From Desulfosoma sp. (lineage in GTDB: Bacteria; Desulfobacterota; Syntrophobacteria; Syntrophobacterales; DSM-9756), in contig JBBFKY010000001.1 in the NCBI GenBank assembly GCA_037481875.1, forward strand, positions 594,806-658,805: a stretch of 64,000 nucleotides of DNA, read 5' to 3'. The stretch's first letter is position 1. Every line of letters begins with the position of its first letter. Position numbers and translations under genes: made by a program. Under the pieces are notes generated by a model. That model ran no database searches and was not told where the DNA came from. It saw nothing but the letters and a program-made list of their open reading frames with translations. This document shows, one piece after another, positions 33,148-62,391 of the stretch.

Positions 33148-33160
33148 AGGCACTATACCT

Positions 33161-34725: not shown

Positions 34726-34904
34726 GTCGGAACCCACCCTAATGAAGGTACAAGCTCCTTGTCTATCCAGCCATCCTATCTCTCCACCACGATATTGGTT
34801 AGACCATGAAAGAAGACAAATCAAGAGAGAAACCACTAGGCATGCTAGCCTGGACAGCACTTGGCACATGGGTTGAGTTTGAGGCGAGCGATAAGAAAAT
34901 CAGG

Positions 34905-35501
34905 TTAGATGAGTTGCAGTGCGAGGCGGGACCAAAGCTCCAGGGGACGGTGGTGCACCTGTCTAAGAGGGATCCATTGAAACTCGTGCAGTTCGGTACC
35001 TGGCCGAAGGGCCTTGGGCGTCAAAACCTGCATGCGAAAGACGAGTCCAAGGTGAACGAGACCCACTGAGGATTCTTCCTCATTAATGATTCCCTTAAAG
35101 GTGAGTTGGCAATGTTCGGGCAGGGTCGTAAACTCTTCGGAAAGCTCGCGGTACAGACCTCGCTCCAGTTGGGAAGCTAATTCCCCCCTTCCTGCCTCGG
35201 CATCTTCACGAATCACATGGCCTCCCAAACCCACTGAGTCCCGGCCGTGGAGCCTTTTTTCCGAGCCTTTTCGCCGGTAACAACCCACCCGGCCATGGAT
35301 GTCCAACATGACCACGTAAGGGATGATCTGCTTGTACTGCTGGTCCTGTTCTACTTTCTCTCTGGGTTTGTAGCCGTAGCCTGCGGCCGCGATCACCTCA
35401 AGGCATTGCTCATAGCGCAGAGAAAGAGCGGTTCGCCTTTGGAGCCAGGGCTTAGGAAGAGCGTGCCGGGGTACACACAAGACATGTTCTTGTAAACTCA
35501 T
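34905..35501 (-). CDS. Nudix-like hydrolase coupled to Cad1
   Basis: A 198-residue protein with a Nudix fold signature: IIPYVVMLDIHGRVGCYRRK leads into GLGGHVIRED (93-100) and, after an insert of roughly 11 residues, YRELSEEF (117-124). The box G-x5-E...RE-x2-EE is recognisable, but the spacing between its halves is longer than standard. Nudix enzymes hydrolyse nucleoside diphosphate derivatives. The start ATG overlaps the cad1 stop (ATGA), so the two are made in fixed ratio. A natural guess is that it acts on the product of the deaminase (an inosine nucleotide such as ITP) or on cyclic/linear oligoadenylate. Confidence 0.7.
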   Translation of the reverse strand: MSLQEHVLCVPRHALPKPWLQRRTALSLRYEQCLEVIAAAGYGYKPREKVEQDQQYKQIIPYVVMLDIHGRVGCYRRKGSEKRLHGRDSVGLGGHVIREDAEAGRGELASQLERGLYRELSEEFTTLPEHCQLTFKGIINEEESSVGLVHLGLVFRMQVLTPKALRPGTELHEFQWIPLRQVHHRPLELWSRLALQLI

Positions 35502-37675
35502 GGGAGCAATCCTATGTCGAGCAGCTGAAGGATCTTATTTTCAGCCTCTCGTAGAAGTTTGTGCCGCGTGGGGGCGGTGGTGAAAGCAGCTTTGAAGGCA
35601 TTTCGGATGAGCAGCAGAATGTCCCAAAGGCTCAAACCGTTAGCGGTAAGCCGCCCTGCGCGGTGGTATTCGGTTGAAAAGTCGGTTCGTGAGATGCCAG
35701 GGTTGTCCGTGTTGACGGTCACCCGTAAACCCTGTTTTAGGTAGTTCAAGAGAGGGTAATGGGGGAGGGATGCCGTATTGGGCATGTGGGTGTCTCGAAA
35801 GCCTACGATTTGGCAGTTGCTAGAGGGGCACATCTCCAGTGCGATGCGCCGATCCCGGAGGCGTTCTAGAAGGTTTGGATTCTCATGAAGAGTCAGACCG
35901 TGACCAATGCGTTCGGCGTTGAGATGGTACACTGCCTGCCAGACACTGGAAGCGTCGGCAGTTTCGCCCGCGTGAATGGTGGCGTGCAAACACTTTTCCA
36001 TGAGAGGCAAAAAAGCCTCGCGTACCTTAGCTGGTGCCAGAACTCTTTCATTTCCGGCCAAATCGAAGCCAGCCAGCATTTGGGAGAGCAGATCTTCACG
36101 CTCTAAAACTTTTTTCGCTAAAGCCACATTTTTCTGCAGAGCCGACAAATCCCGATGGCGGCTACCGATAAGAATTAGAACTGTGGATTGAGAGCCCTCT
36201 CGAGTCAGTTCTTCAGCAATGATCTGAAGCACCTGGAGGGCATTTAGTCCTCCCCGCGAGTAATTCTTCGGTGAACAGCGCACTTCCAGGTGTAGCACGT
36301 TGTGTTCTCGTGCTTTACGGCCCAAGATTCGGCACGTTGCTCTTAGGGTTTCTTCGCTCTGTAGGAGGGCGGATCCCTGAAGATCGCCTAAGGCCTCGTA
36401 AGCTTCGTAGCCTATGCCGACAAAATTTTTTTCCTCGAGGTAGGTTCCGTAAATCATTTCCTCCAGAACATGAGGGCTCGATTCAAAAAGGAGAATAAAA
36501 GCGGCTACAGGAAGCGGTTCCGGAACGCCAGGGACGGCTTGCCGTAGCGTTTTCCAGTTCAACCCTTTGCTCAGATGGATGGGATCCATCGTATTGAGAC
36601 GCGATCTCCAAGCATTAAGCCAAGGGTCCAGTTGGTGCCGGTATTTTTGGATGTTTTCCCCAACGGATGAGGCCACTTCGATCATTTCCTTGACCGTTAA
36701 AGCTCCGCCTAAATGGCAGTGCAGTTCCGCTTTGGGGAGACGGCGAAGAAGTGAAATTTCTGCTTCAACTTGGTGGGGCTCTCTATTGAGGCCGACGAGG
36801 GTCTGCTTGAGCTTCTGAATAGTTCGGGGCGGGAGGCTGTAGAGGGCGAGAAAATTGGCCGAGGTTTCTGCTTGGATGATGTGGCTGGCGTGGTTAGCCG
36901 CGAGGTTTGAGGCCGCCTGGATACGCTTTTCCAGAGCATCAAGGAGTGGGGTTTCTTTTATAGGTAAGCAGTAATCCTGCCAAAAAACAAAGGATTCCAG
37001 CGCCTTCAGCAGGTTCGTGTGGATAAAGTCTTCCAGCGGCCTTTGCCAGGTTTCCTGGTAGTCCATGAGAGGGTTAGGAGTGTGTCGGGCCACCACTACA
37101 GGTGTTACTGCATCGGCAATAGGGGCGGGAAGAGGTTTACAGAAGTCGTGGATCTGCAGTTTCTTGAAGAGAGGCAGCTTATCGTCACGGCCGACCACGT
37201 GAACCAGGGCTCGGCACCCGAAAAAGGCGGCTGCCGTTTGCATGTCGCTGCTCATGGTCTTTCGGCCTCCCGTGAGCGACAAGAGCAGAGAACCATTGGG
37301 GCCTGCCTCCTTAGTACCACATAGGACCACCTGATGAATGGCTTCACTCATTTGACGGCATTCGGTCAAGGATGAGAGGTCCTGAAGGCCGTGAACCCTT
37401 ACCACACGGCATCGAAGCCGGTTGGATGCCGTGATGTTGAGCCAGTTTTTCAAGATGTCAAGGGCATTGATGATTTCCGGTCCATCTGTGGTGATAATCC
37501 AAAGACTTTGGATGGGCTTAATATCGTATTGGACGCGAAGAGACTCGAGTTCCTTTCGGTTAGGGTGGTGTTTATAGAGGTCGACCAAATCGGGGTTGGT
37601 CCATCCCAGAATTTCTGGAACAATTTCCCAGTTTTTTCCAAGTGTTGTGACGAGAACGTGGTTCATCGAAGTCAT
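35498..37675 (-). CDS. cad1: CARF-adenosine deaminase effector Cad1
   Basis: A 725-residue fusion. Residues 1-190 form a CARF sensor (MNHVLVTTLGKNWEIVPEIL; ligand loop LLLSLTGGRKTMSSDM at about 130-145). Residues 312-725 form an adenosine/AMP-deaminase barrel with all zinc and catalytic motifs: AELHCHLGGAL (His319, His321), HATIHAGETADASS, AERIGHGLTLH, EMCPSSN and VNTDNPGISRT. Cad1 (CAAD) proteins are cyclic-oligoadenylate-activated and convert ATP to ITP during type III immunity. The start is placed at ATG 37675; ATG 37723 or 37666 are alternatives, none with a clear ribosome site. It heads a six-gene operon and lies just downstream of the array in its direction of transcription. Confidence 0.9.
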   Translation of the reverse strand: MTSMNHVLVTTLGKNWEIVPEILGWTNPDLVDLYKHHPNRKELESLRVQYDIKPIQSLWIITTDGPEIINALDILKNWLNITASNRLRCRVVRVHGLQDLSSLTECRQMSEAIHQVVLCGTKEAGPNGSLLLSLTGGRKTMSSDMQTAAAFFGCRALVHVVGRDDKLPLFKKLQIHDFCKPLPAPIADAVTPVVVARHTPNPLMDYQETWQRPLEDFIHTNLLKALESFVFWQDYCLPIKETPLLDALEKRIQAASNLAANHASHIIQAETSANFLALYSLPPRTIQKLKQTLVGLNREPHQVEAEISLLRRLPKAELHCHLGGALTVKEMIEVASSVGENIQKYRHQLDPWLNAWRSRLNTMDPIHLSKGLNWKTLRQAVPGVPEPLPVAAFILLFESSPHVLEEMIYGTYLEEKNFVGIGYEAYEALGDLQGSALLQSEETLRATCRILGRKAREHNVLHLEVRCSPKNYSRGGLNALQVLQIIAEELTREGSQSTVLILIGSRHRDLSALQKNVALAKKVLEREDLLSQMLAGFDLAGNERVLAPAKVREAFLPLMEKCLHATIHAGETADASSVWQAVYHLNAERIGHGLTLHENPNLLERLRDRRIALEMCPSSNCQIVGFRDTHMPNTASLPHYPLLNYLKQGLRVTVNTDNPGISRTDFSTEYHRAGRLTANGLSLWDILLLIRNAFKAAFTTAPTRHKLLREAENKILQLLDIGLLP

Positions 37676-37907
37676 GTCACTTTTGAGGGTAGTAGTCTTG
37701 GTTATAAACGTGAGGTTGTTCATACCAGATACTAGAAAAGCCGTCCATGCCCAAGGGATGAGGCGGCAAGGTTGTCACATGTGGCGAGAGCCTTTTAGTA
37801 TCGCGTGATGTTTTGAACGATTCCTCCAGCGACACGGTCTGCCATGCTTTCTCGATAACGTTGGACGGGGATTGTTGGTTTGCGGAGCCGGCCGAAATAA
37901 CGGTTAA

Positions 37908-37943
37908 GTCTCAATCCCCTCAAATCGGGGCCTGCCTTCGGAC
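37908..37943 (-). CRISPR. Isolated consensus CRISPR repeat
   Basis: A 36-base repeat identical to the array consensus, standing alone 582 bases beyond the main array and about 230 bases upstream of cad1. It borders the phage-derived fragment directly. Its perfect sequence contrasts with the two degenerate repeats on the other side of that fragment. Confidence 0.9.
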
Positions 37944-38525: not shown

Positions 38526-41500
38526 GTCTCAATCCCCTCAAATCGGGGCCAGCTTTCGGACGTAGCTCGGCTCTTGCGGGTCCATGTCCGAACAGTCTAT
38601 GTCTTAATCCCCTCAAATCGGGGCCAGCTTTCGGACTTACCACTCGGTCCAAGCTGAGGTCAAAGACACTTGCGTCTCAATCCCCTCAAATCGGGGCCTG
38701 CCTTCGGACTAAATATGCTCAAGCCATGAAAAAAGCTGGGGTTGAGTCTCAATCCCCTCAAATCGGGGCCTGCCTTCGGACAACAGGCTCATCGTCGAGC
38801 CTGTTACAAGCTCGCAAGTCTCAATCCCCTCAAATCGGGGCCTGCCTTCGGACCAAGACTTCTAGACCATGAATTCGGCCAAGCAGCAGGTCTCAATCCC
38901 CTCAAATCGGGGCCTGCCTTCGGACTACCCACGGGGGCCTTATGCACTACCGCCGCCGCGGGTCTCAATCCCCTCAAATCGGGGCCTGCCTTCGGACACC
39001 ACAAAGCCCCCGGGCAACCCCCGGGGGCTTTGGTCTCAATCCCCTCAAATCGGGGCCTGCCTTCGGACACAAACATCTCTGTAGCGTTCGGCGACAACGT
39101 CTGTCTCAATCCCCTCAAATCGGGGCCTGCCTTCGGACAGGGACATATCCGAGCAGGTCCCCCAGGGCCGATGAGTCTCAATCCCCTCAAATCGGGGCCT
39201 GCCTTCGGACGAGGGAACCCAACAGCCCGCCCGAGGCCACCACAAGTCTCAATCCCCTCAAATCGGGGCCTGCCTTCGGACCTATGAAGATCACATTCGT
39301 AAAAAGAAGGCAAGGGTGTCTCAATCCCCTCAAATCGGGGCCTGCCTTCGGACCTATCAAATGCTCGGGCTCGGGGCTTTGGCATGAAGGTCTCAATCCC
39401 CTCAAATCGGGGCCTGCCTTCGGACGTATTGAAAAAATGGGGGAGTTCCGAGCCATACCAAGTCTCAATCCCCTCAAATCGGGGCCTGCCTTCGGACCTA
39501 TTGCGCCTTTGTGCGCTCGGGCTGCGTCATCTGGTCTCAATCCCCTCAAATCGGGGCCTGCCTTCGGACCTGGTTAGAGTCTTCCGCACTAACGCCGCTG
39601 GGGAAGTCTCAATCCCCTCAAATCGGGGCCTGCCTTCGGACGAGGGAACCCAACAGCCCGCCCGAGGCCACCACAAGTCTCAATCCCCTCAAATCGGGGC
39701 CTACCTTCGGACAAGACTTGACAATGGCTTTGTCAAGTTGCCTGCAAGTCTCAATCCCCTCAAATCGGGGCCTGCCTTCGGACCTTCTAAATGCACAATG
39801 GCACAAGCACATAGTGCTTGTCTCAATCCCCTCAAATCGGGGCCTGCCTTCGGACCAACGTTGTAAAGACCCTCCTAATCGATCTTATGAGTCTCAATCC
39901 CCTCAAATCGGGGCCTGCCTTCGGACCAAAAGACGTACCAGCTACATATGGAGACTGGTTATGGTCTCAATCCCCTCAAATCGGGGCCTGCCTTCGGACG
40001 AGACCAAGTTTCAGAAAATACCGTGCGCGAATGGGTCTCAATCCCCTCAAATCGGGGCCTGCCTTCGGACGTCAAGTTTTGTGAAAGAGTTCTTGGGCTT
40101 TCTCAGTCTCAATCCCCTCAAATCGGGGCCTGCCTTCGGACACGAAAAGCTTGCCCGGGAGGTGCGGATTTGGTCCGGTCTCAATCCCCTCAAATCGGGG
40201 CCTGCCTTCGGACCTAATGAGTGGCCCGACGTAAAACTTACCCTCCGCGAGTCTCAATCCCCTCAAATCGGGGCCTGCCTTCGGACAAAGAAAGCAAATT
40301 ACTTCAGATATGCGAAACCATGTCTCAATCCCCTCAAATCGGGGCCTGCCTTCGGACAAAGCCTGCACAAGCAGCGCTTGGCCATTGACCTGGTCTCAAT
40401 CCCCTCAAATCGGGGCCTGCCTTCGGACCAAGGGAACCCAACCACAAGCCCGCCCCGAGGCCAAGTCTCAATCCCCTCAAATCGGGGCCTGCCTTCGGAC
40501 GCAAAGCGGCAAATGCCCGCTTCCACGACACCTACGAGTCTCAATCCCCTCAAATCGGGGCCTGCCTTCGGACCACCTAGGCGAGGGACCCCCTCGCCTG
40601 GAGTGGAAAAGTCTCAATCCCCTCAAATCGGGGCCTGCCTTCGGACTCTTCATGCGAAAGAAACTTGAAACTCCACCTAGGCGTCTCAATCCCCTCAAAT
40701 CGGGGCCTGCCTTCGGACTATGCAGAGAATAGCAAAACTCACCAAGATTAGAGGGTCTCAATCCCCTCAAATCGGGGCCTGCCTTCGGACGAAATTTCCG
40801 CTGCCGTAAAGTCAACCCCAGGCCAAGGGTCTCAATCCCCTCAAATCGGGGCCTGCCTTCGGACTCATCCTCAACACGGCGTGGTCCGGATCTTCCGGAC
40901 TGTCTCAATCCCCTCAAATCGGGGCCTGCCTTCGGACCAAGAATGGAGGTTCCGACTATGCAGAGAATAGCAAGTCTCAATCCCCTCAAATCGGGGCCTG
41001 CCTTCGGACGCTACGTCTCTCCACAACAAGCAAGCCAATTAATAAGTCTCAATCCCCTCAAATCGGGGCCTGCCTTCGGACCCACCCGCGTACAGGCACA
41101 AAGCTCAGAACTTCCGGCGTCTCAATCCCCTCAAATCGGGGCCTGCCTTCGGACAACAAAGCCCGCCCGAGGCCACTCCAAGCCGCCGCCGTCTCAATCC
41201 CCTCAAATCGGGGCCTGCCTTCGGACGAAAGGAAGGCCCAAGAAACCAGGAAGGCGCTGGTGTCTCAATCCCCTCAAATCGGGGCCTGCCTTCGGACCTG
41301 ATGGGATCACGGCCTTGTGGGCCACCCGCGAAGGTCTCAATCCCCTCAAATCGGGGCCTGCCTTCGGACCTGATGGGATCACGGCCTTGTGGGCCACCCG
41401 CGAAGGTCTCAATCCCCTCAAATCGGGGCCTGCCTTCGGACCCTTCCTGGCGCCCTCTGGGCGCTTTGCGACCACCGTCTCAATCCCCTCAAATCGGGGC

Positions 41501-44500
41501 CTGCCTTCGGACACAAGCCCCCGGGTAACCCCAGGGGCTTTGATCTTTGTCTCAATCCCCTCAAATCGGGGCCTGCCTTCGGACGTCGCTTTGCGACCAC
41601 CTCGCCTCTAATACCCTGCGTCTCAATCCCCTCAAATCGGGGCCTGCCTTCGGACTGAAATATTAACCCTAACCCACGGCGGCGTTGCACAGTCTCAATC
41701 CCCTCAAATCGGGGCCTGCCTTCGGACCCACAAAAAGCCCAAGCAGGGAGCGGGAAACAAGTACGTCTCAATCCCCTCAAATCGGGGCCTGCCTTCGGAC
41801 CAAGGACGATGCAGAAGAGGTTCTCTACTCAGCAGGGTCTCAATCCCCTCAAATCGGGGCCTGCCTTCGGACCACAACATTGGCGCCGTGGAGAGGGTTG
41901 GCGCCGCTGTCTCAATCCCCTCAAATCGGGGCCTGCCTTCGGACGCACGCCTACGTGCGCCTTGACGGAGGGGTCGGCCTGTCTCAATCCCCTCAAATCG
42001 GGGCCTGCCTTCGGACATTGCGGCGACGGGGACATGTTCCGGCCCGAGAAGTCTCAATCCCCTCAAATCGGGGCCTGCCTTCGGACACAAAGGGACCTTG
42101 GAGTATGAAAACGGTTGCTGAAGTCTCAATCCCCTCAAATCGGGGCCTGCCTTCGGACGCAAAGCGGCAAATGCCCGCTTCCACGACACCTACGAGTCTC
42201 AATCCCCTCAAATCGGGGCCTGCCTTCGGACACACGTAATTTGGGCAATCGGCACCAAGGCAGAAAAGTCTCAATCCCCTCAAATCGGGGCCTGCCTTCG
42301 GACAAATCAGGAAAGGAGGGCACTATGCTTGACATTGGTCTCAATCCCCTCAAATCGGGGCCTGCCTTCGGACCCCTTGGGGCTTTCCTCTTTTAGTCCC
42401 TCGTAAAGGTCTCAATCCCCTCAAATCGGGGCCTGCCTTCGGACCCGAACTGACCGGCAACGTCCCTGGTACTTACCAGGGGAGTCTCAATCCCCTCAAA
42501 TCGGGGCCTGCCTTCGGACCCCACGTCCAGGACCTCGGCTGGGCAAAGTTCAAGGAGTCTCAATCCCCTCAAATCGGGGCCTGCCTTCGGACATGTTATG
42601 TTCTGTCTTTCAAGAGGAATGGTGGTTGTCTCAATCCCCTCAAATCGGGGCCTGCCTTCGGACCTAATATCTCAAGGCCAAGGCCTTAGCGCCTTGGCCT
42701 TTGTCTCAATCCCCTCAAATCGGGGCCTGCCTTCGGACTTTTCGTGGGCGGACAGGAGGGATGTTTCACTGTAGTCTCAATCCCCTCAAATCGGGGCCTG
42801 CCTTCGGACTATGAAGAAAAAGACCAGCGCCAACACCGCACAGGTCTCAATCCCCTCAAATCGGGGCCTGCCTTCGGACCTAGCCACAAAGTGGCCTGAA
42901 GCCACCTTGTGCATGTCTCAATCCCCTCAAATCGGGGCCTGCCTTCGGACCATGAAAGACGACAGACTTTTCGGTCCGTATCGGACGTCTCAATCCCCTC
43001 AAATCGGGGCCTGCCTTCGGACGAAAATACCGTGCGCGAGTGGCTTCAAAAGCCGCTTGTCTCAATCCCCTCAAATCGGGGCCTGCCTTCGGACCCGAGG
43101 CTCCTTCCCAACCTCCCGACCTGCTCCGAGGGTCTCAATCCCCTCAAATCGGGGCCTGCCTTCGGACTAGAATATCCAAAAAAGAAGCTCATCATTCAGG
43201 GATCCGTCTCAATCCCCTCAAATCGGGGCCTGCCTTCGGACCCCTTGAGGACCCTGCGGGTCCCGCGGTGCTTGTCAGGTCTCAATCCCCTCAAATCGGG
43301 GCCTGCCTTCGGACAACGCGTACTGCACGCCAAGCAACTAACCTGCCCAAGGTCTCAATCCCCTCAAATCGGGGCCTGCCTTCGGACCCAACAAGGCGCA
43401 AGCGAAGCTTCGGATGGCCGCTCGGTCTCAATCCCCTCAAATCGGGGCCTGCCTTCGGACGACCACGTGCCGACTGAAATTCCTCCGCAGGGGATCGTCT
43501 CAATCCCCTCAAATCGGGGCCTGCCTTCGGACATCTCGGGCCAGATCAGCTTGCCTGGCAAACTCGCGTCTCAATCCCCTCAAATCGGGGCCTGCCTTCG
43601 GACACTCGGATCTATCAGGTAACGTAATCCTGACCAAGGTCTCAATCCCCTCAAATCGGGGCCTGCCTTCGGACTTCACCTACAAGTCTATCGAGTTCGA
43701 CGAAGATTTGGTCTCAATCCCCTCAAATCGGGGCCTGCCTTCGGACAGCGGATCGTGGCCCACCTGTGCCCGAAGCTGGAGGTCTCAATCCCCTCAAATC
43801 GGGGCCTGCCTTCGGACAGGGCGACCTCGGAGCCTAAGAGAAAGAAGGAACGGTCTCAATCCCCTCAAATCGGGGCCTGCCTTCGGACGCATCTATCGTC
43901 ACCAAGACCACAGGATACTCACCGTCTCAATCCCCTCAAATCGGGGCCTGCCTTCGGACACCATGAGAGGCGAAATTATCGACACGTTAGTTCTGTCTCA
44001 ATCCCCTCAAATCGGGGCCTGCCTTCGGACCATGCAGCTTACGGACTCGTGCGGATAACGCGCACTGTCTCAATCCCCTCAAATCGGGGCCTGCCTTCGG
44101 ACACACCTAACACCACATTAGAGAGGAGTTAACCATGTCTCAATCCCCTCAAATCGGGGCCTGCCTTCGGACCGACGAGCTCAGAGCTCTTGCCGACAGG
44201 CAAGAGCTCCCGATGAGTCTCAATCCCCTCAAATCGGGGCCTGCCTTCGGACTATGGCTGCCTTGCTCTATCCCGAAACCGTCGAGGAGTCTCAATCCCC
44301 TCAAATCGGGGCCTGCCTTCGGACAGTCTATGCCAACACAATAGGGCAAGAATGCCTACGTCTCAATCCCCTCAAATCGGGGCCTGCCTTCGGACACTAT
44401 GTCTCCCAGGGGCTTTTCTTTTGGTGCGCCTGTCTCAATCCCCTCAAATCGGGGCCTGCCTTCGGACTTGCAGGCCTCCCGGCCTCTATTCCGGCCTGTC

Positions 44501-47500
44501 GGGTCTCAATCCCCTCAAATCGGGGCCTGCCTTCGGACTTCCAAAGATCAGCCCTAGTGTTGGCGCAAGCCAAGTCTCAATCCCCTCAAATCGGGGCCTG
44601 CCTTCGGACGATAGAGGTGCCTGACAGGCTCAAGTGGCCTGCGGGTCTCAATCCCCTCAAATCGGGGCCTGCCTTCGGACTCAAGGCAGCCATAAGGCGC
44701 CTTGTCCATCCAATGTCTCAATCCCCTCAAATCGGGGCCTGCCTTCGGACTTGAGACATGTTTTCAGGGTGCGGGTGCTTGGGGAATTTGTCTCAATCCC
44801 CTCAAATCGGGGCCTGCCTTCGGACACCAGCTTCTCACGACTAAAGAGGCCGCCAGGTTCGTCTCAATCCCCTCAAATCGGGGCCTGCCTTCGGACCAAC
44901 AAAGTAAGTTGCTAGAAGGCTGTGGTGCAACAGTCTCAATCCCCTCAAATCGGGGCCTGCCTTCGGACTTTGTTAATCACGGCGATATCGAGATCCGGCT
45001 AAGTCTCAATCCCCTCAAATCGGGGCCTGCCTTCGGACTCAACCGTTCAGCTCTGATGTTGGCTTGCGCCAACGTCTCAATCCCCTCAAATCGGGGCCTG
45101 CCTTCGGACCTATGGAAAGAAAAGAAAAAGACTGGTTCTGGATCAGTCTCAATCCCCTCAAATCGGGGCCTGCCTTCGGACACAAGCCTGTAGACTAACC
45201 GCCTTGGGGTCCCGCAGTCTCAATCCCCTCAAATCGGGGCCTGCCTTCGGACTCAACCGTTCAGCTCTGATGTTGGCTTGCGCCAACGTCTCAATCCCCT
45301 CAAATCGGGGCCTGCCTTCGGACCTATGGAAAGAAAAGAAAAAGACTGGTTCTGGATCAGTCTCAATCCCCTCAAATCGGGGCCTGCCTTCGGACACAAG
45401 CCTGTAGACTAACCGCCTTGGGGTCCCGCAGTCTCAATCCCCTCAAATCGGGGCCTGCCTTCGGACAGATTGTGGTTCCGTGGTAAGGTTGTCTGGTTCC
45501 AGTCTCAATCCCCTCAAATCGGGGCCTGCCTTCGGACGGAAGATTTGTGAACAGTCAGGAGAAGAGTCCGCTGGTCTCAATCCCCTCAAATCGGGGCCTG
45601 CCTTCGGACTCGAGGCCGTGGACCGCTGGCTCCAATGGCGCAACAGTCTCAATCCCCTCAAATCGGGGCCTGCCTTCGGACACAATGTTCAAGCTAAGGA
45701 AATGGCACTATGAGGATGTCTCAATCCCCTCAAATCGGGGCCTGCCTTCGGACCATCCGCGGTATGGCTTGGTGCGCATCTTGCGCACGTCTCAATCCCC
45801 TCAAATCGGGGCCTGCCTTCGGACTTCAAATAACCAGCAAAGGAATCCTGAACCACGAACGTCTCAATCCCCTCAAATCGGGGCCTGCCTTCGGACGACA
45901 ACGGACCATGTGTCGACGTAGCCAAGGCCAAGTCTCAATCCCCTCAAATCGGGGCCTGCCTTCGGACGCACTTTACCGACTGCCGCCCCGAGCTTGCTTT
46001 GAGTCTCAATCCCCTCAAATCGGGGCCTGCCTTCGGACACATGCTCGATATAGACAACTGGACACGGTCCGAATGTCTCAATCCCCTCAAATCGGGGCCT
46101 GCCTTCGGACTATGAAGCTAATGATCCAAAAATCAAGCGAAAACTGTCTCAATCCCCTCAAATCGGGGCCTGCCTTCGGACACGAACCGAGTTCGTCCCA
46201 AGCGTTCACGGGATCGTCTCAATCCCCTCAAATCGGGGCCTGCCTTCGGACCTATGCTAGCGGTAGAATTTCCAAAAAAGAAGCTCCGTCTCAATCCCCT
46301 CAAATCGGGGCCTGCCTTCGGACGTTGACGAGACTATGCTAGCGGTAGAATTTCCAAGTCTCAATCCCCTCAAATCGGGGCCTGCCTTCGGACCCAGCAC
46401 TAGGTGACAACTTTGCAAAGGAGAAGAATTATGTCTCAATCCCCTCAAATCGGGGCCTGCCTTCGGACACGGCGCTTGTGGTGCCGTCTGCAAGCTTTGC
46501 TGGGTCTCAATCCCCTCAAATCGGGGCCTGCCTTCGGACATATGCGTGCGGGAAGAAGGCCTCAGACCGGCAATATGTCTCAATCCCCTCAAATCGGGGC
46601 CTGCCTTCGGACTCATCGCGTGGTATCCAGGTGACCCTGGAACCTACCGTCTCAATCCCCTCAAATCGGGGCCTGCCTTCGGACATTGCTATGCCGTAAA
46701 GGCATGGCGATCACGGGCGGTCTCAATCCCCTCAAATCGGGGCCTGCCTTCGGACGCACTTGTTGGGGCGTGTTGCGCAACGGGTCAAGCAGTCTCAATC
46801 CCCTCAAATCGGGGCCTGCCTTCGGACAAAGGATGGAAGACACTCCCGGCAGAGGAAGCCCGGTCTCAATCCCCTCAAATCGGGGCCTGCCTTCGGACAG
46901 GATTTGGTTTGGAATGTCTGCCTGGATCAAGCCGTCTCAATCCCCTCAAATCGGGGCCTGCCTTCGGACTATGCAAAGTCAGACTTTAACGAGGTTGCTG
47001 TTACGTCTCAATCCCCTCAAATCGGGGCCTGCCTTCGGACAAGCGGATTCGAGCATACAATATTTCACACGGAAAGTCTCAATCCCCTCAAATCGGGGCC
47101 TGCCTTCGGACATTGAGCATCGGCGGATTGAGGCAGACGAAGCATGGTCTCAATCCCCTCAAATCGGGGCCTGCCTTCGGACCTTATTCGATGTGCGCCG
47201 ATGGAAAGACGAAGAGTTTGTCTCAATCCCCTCAAATCGGGGCCTGCCTTCGGACATTCATCAAAACAAACTTCTAAGCCAAGACAAGTGTCTCAATCCC
47301 CTCAAATCGGGGCCTGCCTTCGGACATACCACCAATTCTGACGTGTCCAAACCACTCTGAGTCTCAATCCCCTCAAATCGGGGCCTGCCTTCGGACCTAC
47401 TACTCGCTGGATGCCCTTCGGGCCTTTGTTCTCGTCTCAATCCCCTCAAATCGGGGCCTGCCTTCGGACTTTTGTGCGTCCTATGCGCACTTGTTGGGGC

Positions 47501-50500
47501 GTGTTGTCTCAATCCCCTCAAATCGGGGCCTGCCTTCGGACCATCTATGAGCGAATTGAAGTGTCCCTCTTGTGGAGTCTCAATCCCCTCAAATCGGGGC
47601 CTGCCTTCGGACCCAAAGAGGCCGCCAGGTTCTTGTCGGAGGCCTTGTCTCAATCCCCTCAAATCGGGGCCTGCCTTCGGACCCCCTACAACCTGGCATG
47701 CTGGCGCTACAACGGGGTCTCAATCCCCTCAAATCGGGGCCTGCCTTCGGACTGACGGTTGAATGGCCATATTACAGCGTGTGGCTAGGTCTCAATCCCC
47801 TCAAATCGGGGCCTGCCTTCGGACACTTTGCCTCGAGGGTGGAGGTTCGGGACCTCCACGTCTCAATCCCCTCAAATCGGGGCCTGCCTTCGGACCAAGG
47901 CCTTCAGGCCTCTCAAAGCCGCCGCCTCGAGGTCTCAATCCCCTCAAATCGGGGCCTGCCTTCGGACATCGAGGGAACACAAAAGCCCGCCCAAGGCCTT
48001 CAGGTCTCAATCCCCTCAAATCGGGGCCTGCCTTCGGACTTTGAGTGGATCGAGTCCCGTTGGGTTTTGTACAGTCTCAATCCCCTCAAATCGGGGCCTG
48101 CCTTCGGACGTAGCGAGGCCGTGGAATGAGGCCAGAGTTGCTCACGTCTCAATCCCCTCAAATCGGGGCCTGCCTTCGGACACCTCTTGCCTGCCCTGAT
48201 TCCTCATGGGGACGAGTCTCAATCCCCTCAAATCGGGGCCTGCCTTCGGACTGTTGTTGCGTCTAGTGCAGAAACACAAAGAATCCGTCTCAATCCCCTC
48301 AAATCGGGGCCTGCCTTCGGACATGTGCCTTTGCTGTGGCGGTGGAGCGGTAGCGAGGTCTCAATCCCCTCAAATCGGGGCCTGCCTTCGGACGCCACAG
48401 CAGCCCTTTGGGTCCTTGAGGACCCGCAGGTCTCAATCCCCTCAAATCGGGGCCTGCCTTCGGACGAGGAACCATGGTAGAACAAGAATGCATCTTTCAA
48501 GTCTCAATCCCCTCAAATCGGGGCCTGCCTTCGGACAAACCCGGACCACGGGCGGGCGGGCGGCTCAAGCCCGTCTCAATCCCCTCAAATCGGGGCCTGC
48601 CTTCGGACCGCTATCGGGGCGTGGGGCCTCCCTTCGTGTCCGAAGGTCTCAATCCCCTCAAATCGGGGCCTGCCTTCGGACTCGAAATCCCGCTCGAGGC
48701 CGAAAACCCAACTGGTCTCAATCCCCTCAAATCGGGGCCTGCCTTCGGACACGGCATTTCGGCCCTATGGGCCACAAGAGTGGAGTCTCAATCCCCTCAA
48801 ATCGGGGCCTGCCTTCGGACAGATGGTGGGCCACAACGTGACCTACGATCAGACGTGTCTCAATCCCCTCAAATCGGGGCCTGCCTTCGGACATTGTGCG
48901 CGTGACTGCTATGCCGTGAAGGCATGGGTCTCAATCCCCTCAAATCGGGGCCTGCCTTCGGACTCGGGGCCTTCTCTTTTAGTCCCTTGCAAACGGAGTC
49001 TCAATCCCCTCAAATCGGGGCCTGCCTTCGGACACGGGCAGCTCCCTTGGAAGCTGTGGCGACGGGGGTCTCAATCCCCTCAAATCGGGGCCTGCCTTCG
49101 GACTTTTAGTTTGCCGAGCAATGTGACGAGCCTCACGGTCTCAATCCCCTCAAATCGGGGCCTGCCTTCGGACCATACCGCCAATTCTGACGTGTCCAAA
49201 CCACAAAGAGTCTCAATCCCCTCAAATCGGGGCCTGCCTTCGGACCTTATTAAGACGTGCGAAAAGATTCTTGGCGTCAAGTCTCAATCCCCTCAAATCG
49301 GGGCCTGCCTTCGGACATGAAGGAAGACACTCTTATTAAGACGTGCGAAAGTCTCAATCCCCTCAAATCGGGGCCTGCCTTCGGACATGAATCCAGGAAA
49401 GCTCATCGAATTCGGCGAGTCGTCTCAATCCCCTCAAATCGGGGCCTGCCTTCGGACGGAACCATGGTTATCACTCTGACGAAAAGATCCGAGTCTCAAT
49501 CCCCTCAAATCGGGGCCTGCCTTCGGACTAAACGACACGAGAAAACTAAGAACGATCATAACGTCTCAATCCCCTCAAATCGGGGCCTGCCTTCGGACTC
49601 AAGCCGCCGTCTCGAGGGCAACCACGGCCTCAGGGTCTCAATCCCCTCAAATCGGGGCCTGCCTTCGGACCTCGCCGGCTCCTCCGCCGCTGGACTACAC
49701 GCCGCGTCTCAATCCCCTCAAATCGGGGCCTGCCTTCGGACACAATTGTGCCGAATGTCCATGATATGTTCTATTGCGTCTCAATCCCCTCAAATCGGGG
49801 CCTGCCTTCGGACAAAAGGAACCACAACAATTGTGCCGAATGTCCATGAGTCTCAATCCCCTCAAATCGGGGCCTGCCTTCGGACATACAGGGAACACAA
49901 AAAGCCCGCCCAAGGCCAAGGTCTCAATCCCCTCAAATCGGGGCCTGCCTTCGGACAGATTGTCCCGCTCATAAACGGCCAAAAAACATCCTGGTCTCAA
50001 TCCCCTCAAATCGGGGCCTGCCTTCGGACACGAGGGTGGAGGTTCGGGACCTCCACGACCCCAAGTCTCAATCCCCTCAAATCGGGGCCTGCCTTCGGAC
50101 CTATGACATCCTCAAGGAGCATAAAACGCTCAAGTTGTCTCAATCCCCTCAAATCGGGGCCTGCCTTCGGACCCATCCACGACCGCACGTGAGGCGCTGA
50201 CATTGCGCGTCTCAATCCCCTCAAATCGGGGCCTGCCTTCGGACGCGCCGTGGCTATAGTTTCTCGGACTACCTGTTTTGTCTCAATCCCCTCAAATCGG
50301 GGCCTGCCTTCGGACCTCTCTCCAAAGCAGGTTGCAAAGCTAATCGCGCGGTCTCAATCCCCTCAAATCGGGGCCTGCCTTCGGACACAGTGTGACCGCT
50401 ACGGCCACAGCAAGCCCGCAAGTCTCAATCCCCTCAAATCGGGGCCTGCCTTCGGACTCATTCCCTACCATGTTTACAGCGATGACGGCACGAGTCTCAA

Positions 50501-53500
50501 TCCCCTCAAATCGGGGCCTGCCTTCGGACTCACACTGTGACCGCTACGGCCACAGCAAGCCCGCGTCTCAATCCCCTCAAATCGGGGCCTGCCTTCGGAC
50601 CCATTTGAATGGCGCGAGGAGATCCACGCTGGGCATGTCTCAATCCCCTCAAATCGGGGCCTGCCTTCGGACCATGGCATTACACATGGACAGGCAAAGT
50701 TTGGGTTGGTCTCAATCCCCTCAAATCGGGGCCTGCCTTCGGACTCATTGACACGCTAGTGCTTCGATGGAGCCGAAGCGGTCTCAATCCCCTCAAATCG
50801 GGGCCTGCCTTCGGACCGTTGTGGCAGTGATTCAGACAAGGACGTATGTGTTGTCTCAATCCCCTCAAATCGGGGCCTGCCTTCGGACTTCTTCTACTAT
50901 GAAGAGGAAGCCAAGCCCGAGACGAGTCTCAATCCCCTCAAATCGGGGCCTGCCTTCGGACATCATGGTAGGAGTGCTGAGACGTGTTTATGCGGGGTCT
51001 CAATCCCCTCAAATCGGGGCCTGCCTTCGGACCAATATGCCTAGCGAAATTCCTCCGCAGGGAATCATGGGTCTCAATCCCCTCAAATCGGGGCCTGCCT
51101 TCGGACTCAGAAGATACCGTGCGCGAATGGCTTAGCAAGCCGTGTCTCAATCCCCTCAAATCGGGGCCTGCCTTCGGACCTAAGCACCGATGGCTTCACG
51201 GCCTTGTGGGCCACGGTCTCAATCCCCTCAAATCGGGGCCTGCCTTCGGACTATCGGACGAGAATTGAAGTAAAGGACAACCAGGAGTCTCAATCCCCTC
51301 AAATCGGGGCCTGCCTTCGGACGGGATACGACAAGGCCGGCACGGCTGTCGGGCGGTTGGTCTCAATCCCCTCAAATCGGGGCCTGCCTTCGGACTTACG
51401 TGCGCCTTGACGGGGGCGTAGGCCTCGATGCGTCTCAATCCCCTCAAATCGGGGCCTGCCTTCGGACGACGTGGCGTTGTTTTTGCGCAAGAGAGAAGGC
51501 GTGTCTCAATCCCCTCAAATCGGGGCCTGCCTTCGGACGAACATATGAAGGAAGACGTTCTAGTAAAGAGATGTGTCTCAATCCCCTCAAATCGGGGCCT
51601 GCCTTCGGACGAACATATGAAGGAAGACGTTCTAGTAAAGAGATGTGTCTCAATCCCCTCAAATCGGGGCCTGCCTTCGGACCCAAGTAATAGGAGAAAG
51701 AACTATGAAGCGCGAGACGTCTCAATCCCCTCAAATCGGGGCCTGCCTTCGGACCACTCAAAGCCGCCGCCCCCAAGAGGGCAACACGGCCGTCTCAATC
51801 CCCTCAAATCGGGGCCTGCCTTCGGACATAGTACGGTTACATAAACAAAGAGGAGAGATCCATGTCTCAATCCCCTCAAATCGGGGCCTGCCTTCGGACT
51901 CGAAAAGGTGCGGGATGAAGGCATGACAGCCAAGTCTCAATCCCCTCAAATCGGGGCCTGCCTTCGGACCCAAAGACCTGCGAATCAACTACCAGACATC
52001 GGTTGTGTCTCAATCCCCTCAAATCGGGGCCTGCCTTCGGACCATGAAGAACCTCATCGAAGCATTTCTGAGCGAGAGTCTCAATCCCCTCAAATCGGGG
52101 CCTGCCTTCGGACCCAGCCCGAGGAGGCCCAAGAGGGGCAGGAGGCCCGTCTCAATCCCCTCAAATCGGGGCCTGCCTTCGGACAAGTCGGTAGGCTTGA
52201 TGACCGACTATGCAGGCTGTCTCAATCCCCTCAAATCGGGGCCTGCCTTCGGACATGCCGAAGGCCGGATCCGCAAGGAAATCCGGCTTGTCTCAATCCC
52301 CTCAAATCGGGGCCTGCCTTCGGACTTCATGAGGCCAAAGGGTGGGCAAGTGAAAAGATGGTCTCAATCCCCTCAAATCGGGGCCTGCCTTCGGACCCCA
52401 TGATTTCTTCTGGGCTCGTCTCAGGCCAATGCGTCTCAATCCCCTCAAATCGGGGCCTGCCTTCGGACACACAAGGCCAAGGTGCAACGCCTTGGCCTTT
52501 TTGTTGTCTCAATCCCCTCAAATCGGGGCCTGCCTTCGGACGCACGTGCAAAGACGGAAAAGGACGAAGAACACATTGTCTCAATCCCCTCAAATCGGGG
52601 CCTGCCTTCGGACACAAAGCCGCCGCCCCCAAGAGGGCAACACGGCCAAGTCTCAATCCCCTCAAATCGGGGCCTGCCTTCGGACACTTTCTCCAGCCGC
52701 GCCGACCAGAGCGAGGGCTGGTCTCAATCCCCTCAAATCGGGGCCTGCCTTCGGACTAGACCATGAAAAGAATTGCAATACGCTCGTGTCAGTCTCAATC
52801 CCCTCAAATCGGGGCCTGCCTTCGGACATTAGGGCAAGGACTGAGGGCGACGAAGAATTTATCGGTCTCAATCCCCTCAAATCGGGGCCTGCCTTCGGAC
52901 TCTGACGGCGGGCGGCTGATCTTATCGGCCACCCGACCGTCTCAATCCCCTCAAATCGGGGCCTGCCTTCGGACGAACCATGGTCGAACAAGAATGCATC
53001 TTTCAGAGGTGTCTCAATCCCCTCAAATCGGGGCCTGCCTTCGGACCATGAAGGAAACCAAAAAGCCTGCCCCGTGGCCAAGGTCTCAATCCCCTCAAAT
53101 CGGGGCCTGCCTTCGGACCTGCGCGTCGTCCTCTTCCGAGGGGACCGCTACCAAGTCTCAATCCCCTCAAATCGGGGCCTGCCTTCGGACCAATCTTCCT
53201 AATTAATGGCCTTATTGAGGGCGTGTGGTCTCAATCCCCTCAAATCGGGGCCTGCCTTCGGACCCATTCCTGGCCGGGAATGGCCTGAGGTCTTCCTTGT
53301 CTCAATCCCCTCAAATCGGGGCCTGCCTTCGGACTTGACAAGCTCGTTGACTGAGCCGTGAGGCAGCCTCAGTCTCAATCCCCTCAAATCGGGGCCTGCC
53401 TTCGGACCCATATGCGTACGGCAATGAGAAGCTGGACCGGACCGGTCTCAATCCCCTCAAATCGGGGCCTGCCTTCGGACGCTATCGGTGCCCGTGCCAA

Positions 53501-56150
53501 GCTCCGCTTGGCACTAGTCTCAATCCCCTCAAATCGGGGCCTGCCTTCGGACAAACCAAAAAGCCTGCCCCGTGGCCAAGGCCACAACGTCTCAATCCCC
53601 TCAAATCGGGGCCTGCCTTCGGACCTTGAACGTGTGCTAAGAACGAACGCCTACGGCCATGTCTCAATCCCCTCAAATCGGGGCCTGCCTTCGGACCGGA
53701 TGAACAGCGCGTAATATGGGTCAAAGGTTCCCTGTCTCAATCCCCTCAAATCGGGGCCTGCCTTCGGACTCACAAGGAAATTTTCAGGTTAATCGAACAG
53801 CCGCCTGTCTCAATCCCCTCAAATCGGGGCCTGCCTTCGGACAAACCAAAAAGCCTGCCCCGTGGCCAAGGCCACTCAAGTCTCAATCCCCTCAAATCGG
53901 GGCCTGCCTTCGGACCAAGGGAATCGGCCAAGGCCACGGGCGGGCATGGAGGTCTCAATCCCCTCAAATCGGGGCCTGCCTTCGGACCAAAGCCGCCGCC
54001 CCAAGGGAAAGTGGCCAAGGCCAAGTCTCAATCCCCTCAAATCGGGGCCTGCCTTCGGACTCAGGAAGGCCTTGGCGGGGAGCACAGCCCCCGCACGTCT
54101 CAATCCCCTCAAATCGGGGCCTGCCTTCGGACTCATACGAGCGTCTATGTGCTAGTGCACCAAAACAAGTCTCAATCCCCTCAAATCGGGGCCTGCCTTC
54201 GGACGCAATTTACCGAAGACCAGAGAACTCTCTCTACCCAGTCTCAATCCCCTCAAATCGGGGCCTGCCTTCGGACCCGTTGTCAACGGGGAACTGGTTT
54301 CATGGCGGAAGTCTCAATCCCCTCAAATCGGGGCCTGCCTTCGGACACTACGCCCCGCGGTTGGAGTGGATCATACGGGAAAAGTCTCAATCCCCTCAAA
54401 TCGGGGCCTGCCTTCGGACTCTGGAAGCAAGGGATTACGAAATGGCGGCAATGCATGTCTCAATCCCCTCAAATCGGGGCCTGCCTTCGGACGTTGGCTG
54501 AGTGGATACAAAGAGTGAAACAACAATCGTCTCAATCCCCTCAAATCGGGGCCTGCCTTCGGACACATGAGTGTGGCTAATCTGATATGGTACCCCAACG
54601 GTCTCAATCCCCTCAAATCGGGGCCTGCCTTCGGACTGCAGCCCTCGGGCTTCACGGGCTCGCTGACCTCCTGGTCTCAATCCCCTCAAATCGGGGCCTG
54701 CCTTCGGACTCTTGGACGAGTGCGGATTTTCATCCAGAGTGGAAGTCTCAATCCCCTCAAATCGGGGCCTGCCTTCGGACTCATGGTGTTCCCCTTCCCC
54801 TTACTGGCCCCCTAGTGTCTCAATCCCCTCAAATCGGGGCCTGCCTTCGGACATTCGCTTTGCGAAACAAAACAGCACCTTGATAAGCTGTCTCAATCCC
54901 CTCAAATCGGGGCCTGCCTTCGGACAATGGCCTCGTGAGGGTCACTCTCAGGAACCGCACGGTCTCAATCCCCTCAAATCGGGGCCTGCCTTCGGACTTA
55001 CTGTGTGGCGCTATCGGGGCGTGGGGCCGCACTGTCTCAATCCCCTCAAATCGGGGCCTGCCTTCGGACCCAGCAAATGGGTCATATCGATTCGCAAAGA
55101 GGCCCTGTCTCAATCCCCTCAAATCGGGGCCTGCCTTCGGACTAACGCACTACTCAAGGCCACAGGGGACAAGTCCCTGTCTCAATCCCCTCAAATCGGG
55201 GCCTGCCTTCGGACACACGCGATGCGGCCGCTCTGCTAAGCACCATGCTAGTCTCAATCCCCTCAAATCGGGGCCTGCCTTCGGACTTGAGGCCTTTGGC
55301 CTAGGGTCAGTCTTCGACCGTATGTCTCAATCCCCTCAAATCGGGGCCTGCCTTCGGACACTTCATGGGCCGAGGCCGTTCCCTCCATCGAAGGGGTCTC
55401 AATCCCCTCAAATCGGGGCCTGCCTTCGGACTCATGGGTCCCGCAGCTCTGGTTAGCACCGATAATGGTCTCAATCCCCTCAAATCGGGGCCTGCCTTCG
55501 GACCCACGCTTCAATGGCGCGGGGTATCCCAGCGCGAACTGTCTCAATCCCCTCAAATCGGGGCCTGCCTTCGGACGATCAACAAACCGCTAGTGGGTCC
55601 CGCCAACAAAGCGTCTCAATCCCCTCAAATCGGGGCCTGCCTTCGGACCTGAACGCCAGCCCCGTGGGCAACCCCCACGGGGTTTTGTCTCAATCCCCTC
55701 AAATCGGGGCCTGCCTTCGGACATTTTAACCCTGCTTCCGGGAAGCCAGTGGGTAGGTCTCAATCCCCTCAAATCGGGGCCTGCCTTCGGACTTGATGTC
55801 AATCAGGAGATCTCTAGGGCAGAGGCTTGGTCTCAATCCCCTCAAATCGGGGCCTGCCTTCGGACGATGAGGTGATCGCCAAGTGGGCCGAGGCTTACCC
55901 AGGTCTCAATCCCCTCAAATCGGGGCCTGCCTTCGGACACACCACCGAAGTCACCGAGTAAGGAGGCCAGACGTCTCAATCCCCTCAAATCGGGGCCTGC
56001 CTTCGGACACACCACCGAAGTCACCGAGTAAGGAGGCCAGACGTCTCAATCCCCTCAAATCGGGGCCTGCCTTCGGACAGAGGTGCCGGTGCACGTTGCA
56101 ACCGGTCTCACCGAGTCTCAATCCCCTCAAATCGGGGCCTGCCTTCGGAC
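38526..56150 (-). CRISPR. Type III CRISPR array, roughly 245 repeats
   Basis: A 36-base repeat (plus strand GTCTCAATCCCCTCAAATCG then GGGCCTGCCTTCGGAC) alternates with spacers of 34-39 bases over 17.6 kb. Twenty consecutive units average 71.9 bases, which gives about 245 repeats; I did not count all. The reverse complement ends in ATTGAGAC, a close relative of the ATTGAAAC crRNA handle, and contains a CCCC/GGGG hairpin just before it, so the array is read leftwards. In agreement, the leader side faces cas2, and the far-end repeats at 38526 and 38601 are degenerate (CAGCTTTCGGAC ending). One interior repeat (39677) has a single change. Spacer duplications: two single spacers at distance, three adjacent pairs, and one three-spacer block (about 45039/45253). 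Confidence 0.97.
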
Positions 56151-56521
56151 TCTTAGCTTGTCTGGGCGCTTACTGTCAAGCTTTCCAAGCCTGTTTCGGA
56201 GCATCCCGCGCCAAGGTTCCCCAGCTTAACGCAAAAACGAGCCTTCACTTTCGTTTAAAACCTCGTAAGCGTTTGACTCTACACTGTTATACTTTTGCGG
56301 AGCACCTCCCAGGCACCCCTCTCGAAAATTCAATACCTTAGTCACCAATGCCCAATATGCCCTAACATCCTCCGCATCTCTTGCAAAAATCTCAGTTTTT
56401 CATGGAAACTTGATGTGTTAAACCTTTCAACCCCGCTCCGGAATGTGCCCCGTAGATGGTTCGTCAACAACCCAAAATCGAGGAGTACAACAGTAGGCCG
56501 ATGGAAGTGCGTCTGCTACGG
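56151..56521 (-). promoter_or_regulatory. CRISPR leader
   Basis: About 370 gene-free bases lie between cas2 and the newest repeat. This is where transcription and spacer integration should be controlled. On the minus strand TTGACA (56179-56174) stands 23 bases before the first repeat, with CTAAGA after 17 bases abutting it; the -10 match is poor. A better -10-like TATAAC lies further up near 56285-56295 without a good -35. The promoter position is therefore open; the leader assignment rests on repeat polarity and on adjacency to cas1-cas2. Confidence 0.7.
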
Positions 56522-56806
56522 TTAGATAATGCCGTGACTTACCCTCTCCGGTGCCATGCCTGTTCCCACATGCTCAAAAGATCCAAGACACCGTTCGCAC
56601 TGTCGATAAAACCTCACCGTGTCTGTCGTGTGGTCGATGAGACGACTCAAACGATCCATGAGCGTCAGCAGCTTTTTTTCCGTAAGCGCCGGGCACTCAA
56701 AGACGGATTTCTGCACCCGGTACCCATAGCCCTTTAACACCTTAACAACCCGATACCTTGTGCGATCATCCGAAACGTCAAAACACACCACGTAGAACAT
56801 GGACAT
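56522..56806 (-). CDS. cas2: Cas2, CRISPR adaptation subunit
   Basis: A 94-residue Cas2 starting MSMFYVVCFDVSDDRTRYRV (the beta-1 strand and the conserved aspartate), with GYGYRVQKSVFEC and a C-terminal VRFYRQCERCLGSFEHVG. Cas2 dimers bridge Cas1 dimers and hold the spacer precursor. It is the gene nearest the leader. The gap of 58 bases behind cas1 suggests one transcript. Confidence 0.95.
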   Translation of the reverse strand: MSMFYVVCFDVSDDRTRYRVVKVLKGYGYRVQKSVFECPALTEKKLLTLMDRLSRLIDHTTDTVRFYRQCERCLGSFEHVGTGMAPERVSHGII

Positions 56807-56864: not shown

Positions 56865-57911
56865 TTAAAATCGGGTCCACGGAAAAGGTTCATAGACCAG
56901 CGTTTCCCCCATAAGAAAACGCAGGAAACGACGTGCTTGATCCCGCACCACACCCCGATACGTGGTCATGGTCCCCTCAAAAGGACACCGTATCGGCGTG
57001 TTCATCCATCGTTCATAAGCGTCGACAAAAGCACGCGCCATACGAGGCTTCATCTCTACAGGCCGATGATCACGAAGATCCTCTTCATCAACACCATCGG
57101 TCGAAGACACCTCTTTTTGCACAAAATCATCAGGCCCAATGACGCGACGGTTAGTCAGGGCCAAAACCAAACGATCCCCCAAATGCACGCGCCATTCTTC
57201 CACAAGATCACATGCCAAGGACGGTCGCCCATATTCTTCCGTGTGCAGCGTCCCTAAATATGGATCCAGTCCGACTATCTTCACAGCCGTGAGCACCTCG
57301 TTGGTGAGCAGAGTGTACGTAAAAGAGAGTAAGGCGTTGATGGGGTCGAGCGGAGGTCTTTTGGTCCGCCCCGAAAAGGAAAAGCCCGGCACACGGATCA
57401 GCTCCCCAAAAACCCCGAAATACAAATTGGCGCCACGGCCTTCCAGCCCCCGCACCATGTCCATATCCTCCTCCATGGCCGCCATGCGGGCCAAACCTTG
57501 AATCTGCGCGGCCGTATCCCTGAGCCTTTCGGAACCGTATTCTCCCGCCCGTCGCGATAGAAAACGCGCCGCATTTCTCAGCTTAGCCTCCACCAGCAAT
57601 CTCGCAATCCGCACCGCCTCCTTCTCATCAGCGAATCTCAAATACTGCGCCTTGCGACGAGCCACATGCTTGTGTTCATCCACCACAAGACGGCCTCGAA
57701 AATGCCCCCACGGGCTTAAAAGAACCGTTTCCACACGACGCCGTACCAGTTCATGAACCACAGCACCACTTAAAGAGGCGCCAACCAATACCAGCTGCTC
57801 CAACCCTTCCAAGGGAATGCGCCCTATGGCTTCATCTTTGCGCCAGATGATCAGCTCTTCACCCTGTTTGCGCAGGTAAGTGCCGGGTTCCAACACGTAG
57901 TAGCGTTCCAT
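56865..57911 (-). CDS. cas1: Cas1, CRISPR integrase
   Basis: A Cas1 of 348 residues that inserts new spacers at the leader end. The N-terminal beta domain starts MERYYVLEPGTYLRKQGEEL. The helical catalytic domain has the glutamate in LEGRGANLYF and the histidine and acidic residue in LGTLHTEEYGRPSLACDLVE. ATG 57911 was chosen for its GGAGG ribosome site nine bases upstream. There is no fused reverse transcriptase. The gene follows the primase-polymerase gene closely. Confidence 0.95.
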   Translation of the reverse strand: MERYYVLEPGTYLRKQGEELIIWRKDEAIGRIPLEGLEQLVLVGASLSGAVVHELVRRRVETVLLSPWGHFRGRLVVDEHKHVARRKAQYLRFADEKEAVRIARLLVEAKLRNAARFLSRRAGEYGSERLRDTAAQIQGLARMAAMEEDMDMVRGLEGRGANLYFGVFGELIRVPGFSFSGRTKRPPLDPINALLSFTYTLLTNEVLTAVKIVGLDPYLGTLHTEEYGRPSLACDLVEEWRVHLGDRLVLALTNRRVIGPDDFVQKEVSSTDGVDEEDLRDHRPVEMKPRMARAFVDAYERWMNTPIRCPFEGTMTTYRGVVRDQARRFLRFLMGETLVYEPFPWTRF

Positions 57912-57993
57912 GAGGAATGTCCTCCAGTGTTCATCCGACTGTCGAGGAAAACACAACAGTCCACCCCTACAGGAACCTCTCCCCTTAGCATGG

Positions 57994-61081: not shown

Positions 61082-61398
61082 GGTTGTGACTCCCTTGGAA
61101 AAGACGTCGAAAATTTTTTCCACAGCGTTTGCTAGTTAAGTTCCACGGCCTCAAGATCGATCTTTACAAAGGAAGCTATGGCATGAACCGCGAAAGGCTC
61201 TTGACACATGGTCACGAAAGCGGCCGCATCAAAACCCCGGGTGTCAAAAAAAGAGACCCTCCAATTCGGTCACCCCATGAAAAAATCCCATAAAGCCAAA
61301 CTTGACATTTTTTGCGGGTTTGTGAGAACGTTTTCACAATTCCTTTTTTGCAAAACGCTTCTCGAAGGCCGTTAGGTGGAAATGAGGGAGAAAGCACC
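61082..61398. promoter_or_regulatory. Divergent regulatory region of the adaptation and cas6-cas10 operons
   Basis: This region must drive both divergent cas transcripts. TTGACA at 61302-61307 (plus strand) is a good -35 for cas6-cas10, but no good -10 follows at 17 bases. Instead a nearly perfect 18-base palindrome TGTGAGAACGTTTTCACA lies at 61321-61338, where a -10 would be expected. It looks like a repressor or activator site. Confidence 0.5.
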
Positions 61399-62388: not shown

Positions 62389-62391
62389 TTC

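Follow-up and report, generated by a model that had tools for sequence, protein, structure and literature searches.

The 64,000-nucleotide stretch of DNA analyzed here (the window) comes from Desulfosoma, a heat-loving sulfate reducer, and carries a long CRISPR array in which many spacers, when read on the plus strand, look like gene starts or transcription terminators. The question raised by this locus is whether this appearance reflects selection for RNA targeting or acquisition of spacers from transcribed ends with the help of the primase-polymerase that is encoded next to the array, both of which had been put forward in a preliminary description of this DNA. The spacers cited in that description are all present, with the Shine-Dalgarno/ATG or hairpin features assigned to them (the spacer given as 50961 is found at 50962).

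The array (38526..56150, minus strand) was delineated by a repeat scan and consists of 246 repeats of 36 nucleotides, with the sequence GTCCGAAGGCAGGCCCCGATTTGAGGGGATTGAGAC, and 245 spacers, of which 237 are distinct. A solitary copy of this repeat, with unchanged sequence, is located 582 nucleotides to the left of the array (37908..37943, minus strand). Degenerate repeats are found at the left end alone (38526 and 38601), the cas2, cas1, and CRISPR-associated primase-polymerase (CAPP) genes are at the right end, and the 3' end of the repeat is ATTGAGAC when read on the minus strand, which together identify the minus strand as the crRNA strand, as proposed previously. The gap between the array and cas2 (56151..56521, minus strand) lies next to that end of the array at which the repeats are perfect and is a putative leader. 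The cas2-like ORF (56522..56806, minus strand; 94 residues, starting with MSMFYVVCFDVSDDRTRYRVVKVLK) is assigned from its translation, by sequence pattern and position. It is followed by cas1 (56865..57956, minus strand; PF01867, 1.4e-84), which encodes a plain 363-residue protein without a fused reverse transcriptase, and by the gene of a CAPP of type A1 (57994..59634, minus strand; NF040561, 568 bits), such that the CAPP gene adjoins cas1 and cas2 in a CAPP-containing adaptation module.

Beyond this module are the genes of a TPR-repeat protein (59681..61123, minus strand; Pfam TPR matches), of Cas6 (61312..62388, plus strand; PADLOC Cas6, 9.2e-102), and of the type III-A protein Cas10/Csm1 (62389..64000, plus strand, running past the window; TIGR02578, 574 bits, G000:C1:657221-659707), after which csm3, csm4, and csm5 are found just outside the window (locus L218). 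To the left of the array are the genes of a Cad1-like CARF–adenosine deaminase effector (35498..37723, minus strand; PDLC01908 CARF_ADA, 3.9e-205; PF00962; PDB entries 8z3p, 9c67, and 9ebt), of Csx1 (CARF-HEPN; 27828..29201, plus strand; PADLOC), and of Csx20 (29198..29593, plus strand; PADLOC), and cyclic oligoadenylate signaling is predicted from the presence of these three genes. Judged by its gene content, with Cas10/Csm1 and the csm genes, its own Cas6, and an ATTGA-type crRNA 5' handle in the repeat, this is a type III-A CRISPR-Cas locus of Desulfosoma with predicted CARF effectors, Cas6, Cas1, Cas2, and CAPP.

The strand and the gene position of the spacers are deduced from composition, overlap, and codon evidence, rather than from mapped protospacers. 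No protospacer was found in viral_contigs with seven exact or degenerate spacer patterns, in phages and plasmids by megablast of the entire array, or in phages by blastn of most of the array; the best match in these searches was a single one of 85% identity over 40 nucleotides (E = 0.2). The right half of the array has no strong match in its own genome beyond the array, and no clear PAM or flank motif is seen by eye in 25 left and 20 right flanks obtained from overlapping spacers.

The deduced orientation is strongly one-sided. Among the homologous or overlapping pairs of distinct spacers with a score of at least 15, 33 are on the same strand and one is on opposite strands, the latter being a palindromic hairpin, and at a score of at least 16 these numbers are 27 and 0. 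Adjacent spacers at 49246..49350 (plus strand; ATGAAGGAAGACACTCTTATTAAGACGTGCGAAAAG...), for example, overlap on the same strand at one viral gene start. On the plus strand, the spacers are richer in A (26.1%) than in T (19.7%), with 197 AAA and 92 TTT triplets, and of the combinations of a Shine-Dalgarno sequence and ATG (SD-ATG), nine lie on the plus strand versus a single one on the minus strand. When homologous pairs have mismatches, the plus-strand reading implies fewer amino acid changes in eight pairs and the minus-strand reading in none, with 17 pairs tied. Plus-strand spacers therefore have mRNA sense, and the crRNAs are antisense. Minus-strand counterexamples, named as a check in the preliminary description, amount in these counts to one pair out of 34 and one SD-ATG, and the data confirm, at the level of composition, overlap, and codon-level variation, that almost all guides of the array are complementary to viral mRNA.

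The cause of this strand bias can be examined by comparison with other arrays. The comparison includes 54 other CAPP-linked arrays, a sister array with 163 repeats (from the Desulfosoma genome G316), 18 type III arrays in which tblastn finds no CAPP within about 20 kb (this group may hold unrecognized polymerases), and 32 arrays of the same phylum that are mostly of type I (not individually typed). In all statistics, the spacers of the same array are non-independent. In target sense, taken as the strand complementary to the crRNA strand, the purine ratio, (GAA + AAG + AAA)/(TTC + CTT + TTT), is 1.90 for the window and 1.28 for the sister array; with the strand set by composition and repeat-end orientation, it is 1.99 for the other CAPP arrays, 2.73 for the CAPP-free type III arrays, and 0.99 for the type I arrays. 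The type I-like array of G316 is also balanced (A/T 761/751). In the sister array, the purine bias is weak, yet its overlapping pairs are on one strand in 21 cases versus 4 (score of at least 15). Thus, the strand bias follows type III, not CAPP, and CAPP is rejected as its source, as the CAPP-free type III arrays are biased at least as strongly.

By its sequence features, the strand bias of the window is the type III coding-strand bias that has already been published: type III spacers favor the coding strand (PMC8482600; Vink et al. 2021). For Thermus, both strands are the source of type III spacers as long as these are unselected, and the strand bias is created by selection (Artamonova et al. 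2020, PMC7515739). What is shared with these systems is that the crRNAs are complementary to mRNA, explained by the RNA requirement of the effectors. The present data concern a single array with 237 distinct spacers, and the hairpin excess and the AT-rich spacer ends described below are features for which no counterpart was found in the parts of the two papers considered here. Selection for RNA targeting, as suggested previously, is the best explanation of the strand bias, and we infer that it is the cause; strand-specific acquisition could yield the same pattern, and a natural array cannot separate the two.

The second aspect of the initial proposal, a bias of the spacers toward start codons, is not borne out. 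The SD-ATG combination is found in 3.8% of the window spacers and in 4.0, 3.7, and 4.1% of random sense-strand windows of 36 nucleotides from the phages lambda, P2, and P23-45, respectively, such that the density of gene starts is not above that of uniform sampling. ATG is indeed frequent near the beginning of the spacers, being counted 39 times in the first seven nucleotides (18.2 ± 3.8 in shuffles) and, in the first six bases, 48 times versus 19.4 expected from the spacer interior. However, in the first six bases, CAT (38 versus 12.5) and TAT (31 versus 10.9) rise equally, and AT is followed by G in 48 of 110 cases at positions 1 to 6 versus 98 of 260 elsewhere (p = 0.30); for all CAPP arrays, these fractions are 0.303 and 0.297 (p = 0.79). 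The apparent preference for gene starts therefore results from a preference for AT-rich ends, which raises ATG, CAT, and TAT alike. It is most improbable that translation-initiation sites are truly preferred targets: the 13 spacers listed in the preliminary description, the excess of ATG at positions 1 to 6, and several families of overlapping spacers at gene starts would fit such targeting, but the SD-ATG rate equals that of uniform sense-strand sampling, the AT-to-ATG fraction is flat at the spacer ends, and the other CAPP arrays have no excess of early ATG (12.8 versus 12.9 per 100 spacers). The 5' ends of mRNAs, or leaderless starts, were rejected as the source of the spacers, as overlapping spacers show a Shine-Dalgarno sequence upstream of the same ATG.

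The end preference itself is seen as a pyrimidine-A at spacer positions 2 to 3 in 30% of the window spacers, compared with about 9% inside the spacers. CAPP arrays as a group have AT-rich spacer ends, with a GC change of −0.091 in the last three bases and a change of +0.13 in A at position 3; in the CAPP-free type III arrays, these values are −0.017 (by array, p = 0.0006) and −0.002 (p = 0.011), in an exploratory comparison that is uncorrected for the number of measures tried. The CAPP-free type III arrays are mildly AT-rich at positions 3 to 5, and the type I arrays have a weaker GC drop in the last three bases (−0.058). The AT-rich spacer ends thus look CAPP-linked in this exploratory comparison.

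The claim that other spacers are terminators holds in part. Hairpins, defined by a perfect stem of 8 bp or more and a loop of 3 to 10 nucleotides, are enriched in the window (11 of 237 spacers, 4.6%; 0.6 in shuffles) and more so in the sister array (17 of 161, 10.6%; 0.3 in shuffles), the background being 0.25 to 0.65% in windows of host DNA (two larger samples) and 0.46 to 0.71% in three phages. In type I spacers, the rate is 0.8% (p = 5.9e-5 versus the window and 3.9e-11 versus the sister array), and the type I-like array of G316 has one hairpin in 85 spacers (p = 0.008 versus the sister array). The excess stays when one spacer per family is counted (4.3% for the window and 8.7% for the sister array). 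Hairpin rates differ widely between individual arrays. As groups, the other CAPP arrays (2.5%) and the CAPP-free type III arrays (2.4%) have equal, moderate rates (p = 1), such that CAPP is not supported as the source of the excess. The hairpin excess is real, strong in Desulfosoma, and modest in type III generally. As to terminators, the hairpin spacer at 55649..55686 (plus strand; hairpin scan) has the terminator form in plus-strand sense (CCCCGTGGGCAACCCCCACGGGGTTTT), but most hairpin spacers of the window are without a T tract, and the hairpins have no fixed place within the spacer. Strict terminators are sense versus antisense in 2 and 0 cases in the window, 6 and 0 in the sister array, and 3 and 8 in the other CAPP arrays, and on these numbers, the hairpin excess does not appear to be a general signature of transcript 3' ends.

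The best overall explanation, which we consider very probable, is that of a type III-A array shaped by sense-strand selection and by AT-rich spacer ends, with a separate excess of hairpins. Ordinary acquisition by Cas1-Cas2, together with CAPP, would use prespacers with AT-rich ends, the preference being for a pyrimidine-A that lies two to three bases inside the leader-distal end, and this would place ATG, CAT, and TAT near that end, mimicking a preference for start codons. The minus-strand crRNAs would pair with viral mRNA because Cas10/Csm is triggered solely by complementary RNA; cells keeping RNA-targeting spacers would survive, other spacers would be lost, and those that remain would cover the sense strands of viral genes, including their starts, at a roughly even density. 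The hairpins would be a separate effect, arising either from nuclease-resistant structured fragments or from selection for structured viral RNAs that are abundant.

Both of these sources concern the hairpin excess only and are compatible with sense-strand selection and AT-rich ends. Selection for abundant structured viral RNAs, such as small RNAs or terminator-flanked transcripts, is a tentative reading that falls somewhat short of an even chance. Each Desulfosoma array contains one spacer family of 16 members, that of the window being centered on AAAGCCCGCCC, and in the sister array, overlapping spacers, including those of its family, repeatedly cover one terminator and the ribosome-binding site of the next gene, in related viruses. 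The presence of the excess in type III and its absence from type I also argue for this selection, but crRNA is expected to pair more poorly with structured targets, and most hairpins are single, outside the large families. Preferential capture of structured single strands, in which ssDNA or RNA protected by a hairpin escapes nucleases and is turned into prespacers before selection fixes the strand, is possible but doubtful. It is suggested by the contrast between the two long Desulfosoma arrays and the type I and type I-like arrays, by the persistence of the excess at one spacer per family, and by the priming and extension activity of CAPP on ssDNA (PMC8211822; Zabrady et al. 2021). The equal, moderate excess in CAPP-free type III arrays, the large differences between arrays, the variable position of the hairpins, and the lack of protospacers that would show such hairpins to be native to the virus speak against it. 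A combined version, in which type III adaptation, most of all that of Desulfosoma, favors hairpin sequences and CAPP adds the AT-rich ends, as the footprint of primase-polymerase prespacers made from structured single strands, is rather unlikely.

It is very unlikely that RNA or transcript ends are the source of the spacers, with CAPP converting the RNA into DNA and with the strand and end biases being set at acquisition. The strand bias, the hairpin excess with only sense terminators in both Desulfosoma arrays, and the CAPP-linked AT-rich ends could all be accommodated by such a mechanism, but the strand bias of CAPP-free type III arrays is no weaker, the hairpin rate is the same with and without CAPP, the terminators of the other CAPP arrays are mostly antisense, and an excess of start codons or 5' ends is absent. 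In addition, CAPPs are DNA-dependent and copy RNA templates inefficiently, as described in the part of the CAPP study considered here (PMC8211822), which argues against RNA as the CAPP template. The initial proposal that the primase-polymerase helps to acquire spacers from transcribed ends is not supported.

RT-Cas1 type III systems acquire spacers from RNA. The locus shares with these systems an RNA-directed type III array and an adaptation module that includes a polymerase, but here the polymerase is an archaeo-eukaryotic primase and Cas1 has no fused reverse transcriptase; among the neighboring genes scanned, no reverse transcriptase gene is present beside cas1. With CAPP-linked type III adaptation, the locus shares the type III setting and a CAPP A1 gene that neighbors cas1 and cas2; the available description is a biochemical study of DNA-dependent CAPPs (PMC8211822), in the considered part of which a spacer end or hairpin signature was not found. 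The start-codon look of a long type III array can thus be understood as sense-strand selection combined with AT-rich ends, and spacer content alone should not be read as acquisition from RNA ends. The hairpin excess and the AT-rich ends, the latter seen with CAPP and not clearly without it, may serve as testable footprints of how primase-polymerase adaptation modules make prespacers.

The adjacent overlapping spacers also differ in the direction of their displacement: three pairs in the window shift upstream, and among all 50 pairs, 22 shift upstream and 27 downstream.

The spacers of the 246-repeat type III-A array include a family of 16 related members, spread over 39211-53988 and following the pattern AAAGCCCGCCC...AAAGCCGCCGCC, which repeatedly samples a single viral region of about 75 nt. 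The spacers of this family vary in length, and this variation suggests that the source region is non-coding or repeat-rich. The array also contains a three-spacer block in tandem duplicate at 45039-45430, where 45253, 45324 and 45396 carry second copies of the spacers at 45039, 45110 and 45182. Several individual spacers also occur twice (41298/41370, 51539/51611 and 55939/56009). A solitary perfect repeat (37908-37943), located 582 nt past the leader-distal end, is possibly the leftover of an older array end.

In the sister Desulfosoma genome G316, the array linked to the CRISPR-associated primase-polymerase has 163 repeats (positions 7292-19059 of region L039), and strong hairpin spacers (perfect stem of at least 8 bp) make up 10.6% of it, including intrinsic terminators whose end coincides with the spacer end.

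The ORF at 34905-35501, immediately downstream of the Cad1-like effector gene, looks like a Nudix hydrolase when GGHVIREDAEAGRGELASQLERGLYRELSEEF is inspected by eye; an HMM search with this ORF gave no match at 0.001. An operon next to the Cad1-like gene (29738-34869) encodes three proteins that have no confident family assignment: a 710-residue protein that weakly matches Lon_C (E=0.14), a 435-residue protein carrying a CPWC motif and a 373-residue protein whose match to sigma-70 region 4 is likewise weak (E=0.13). This arrangement is reminiscent of the module of protease, anti-sigma and sigma factor (CalpL-CalpT-CalpS) that accompanies type III systems.
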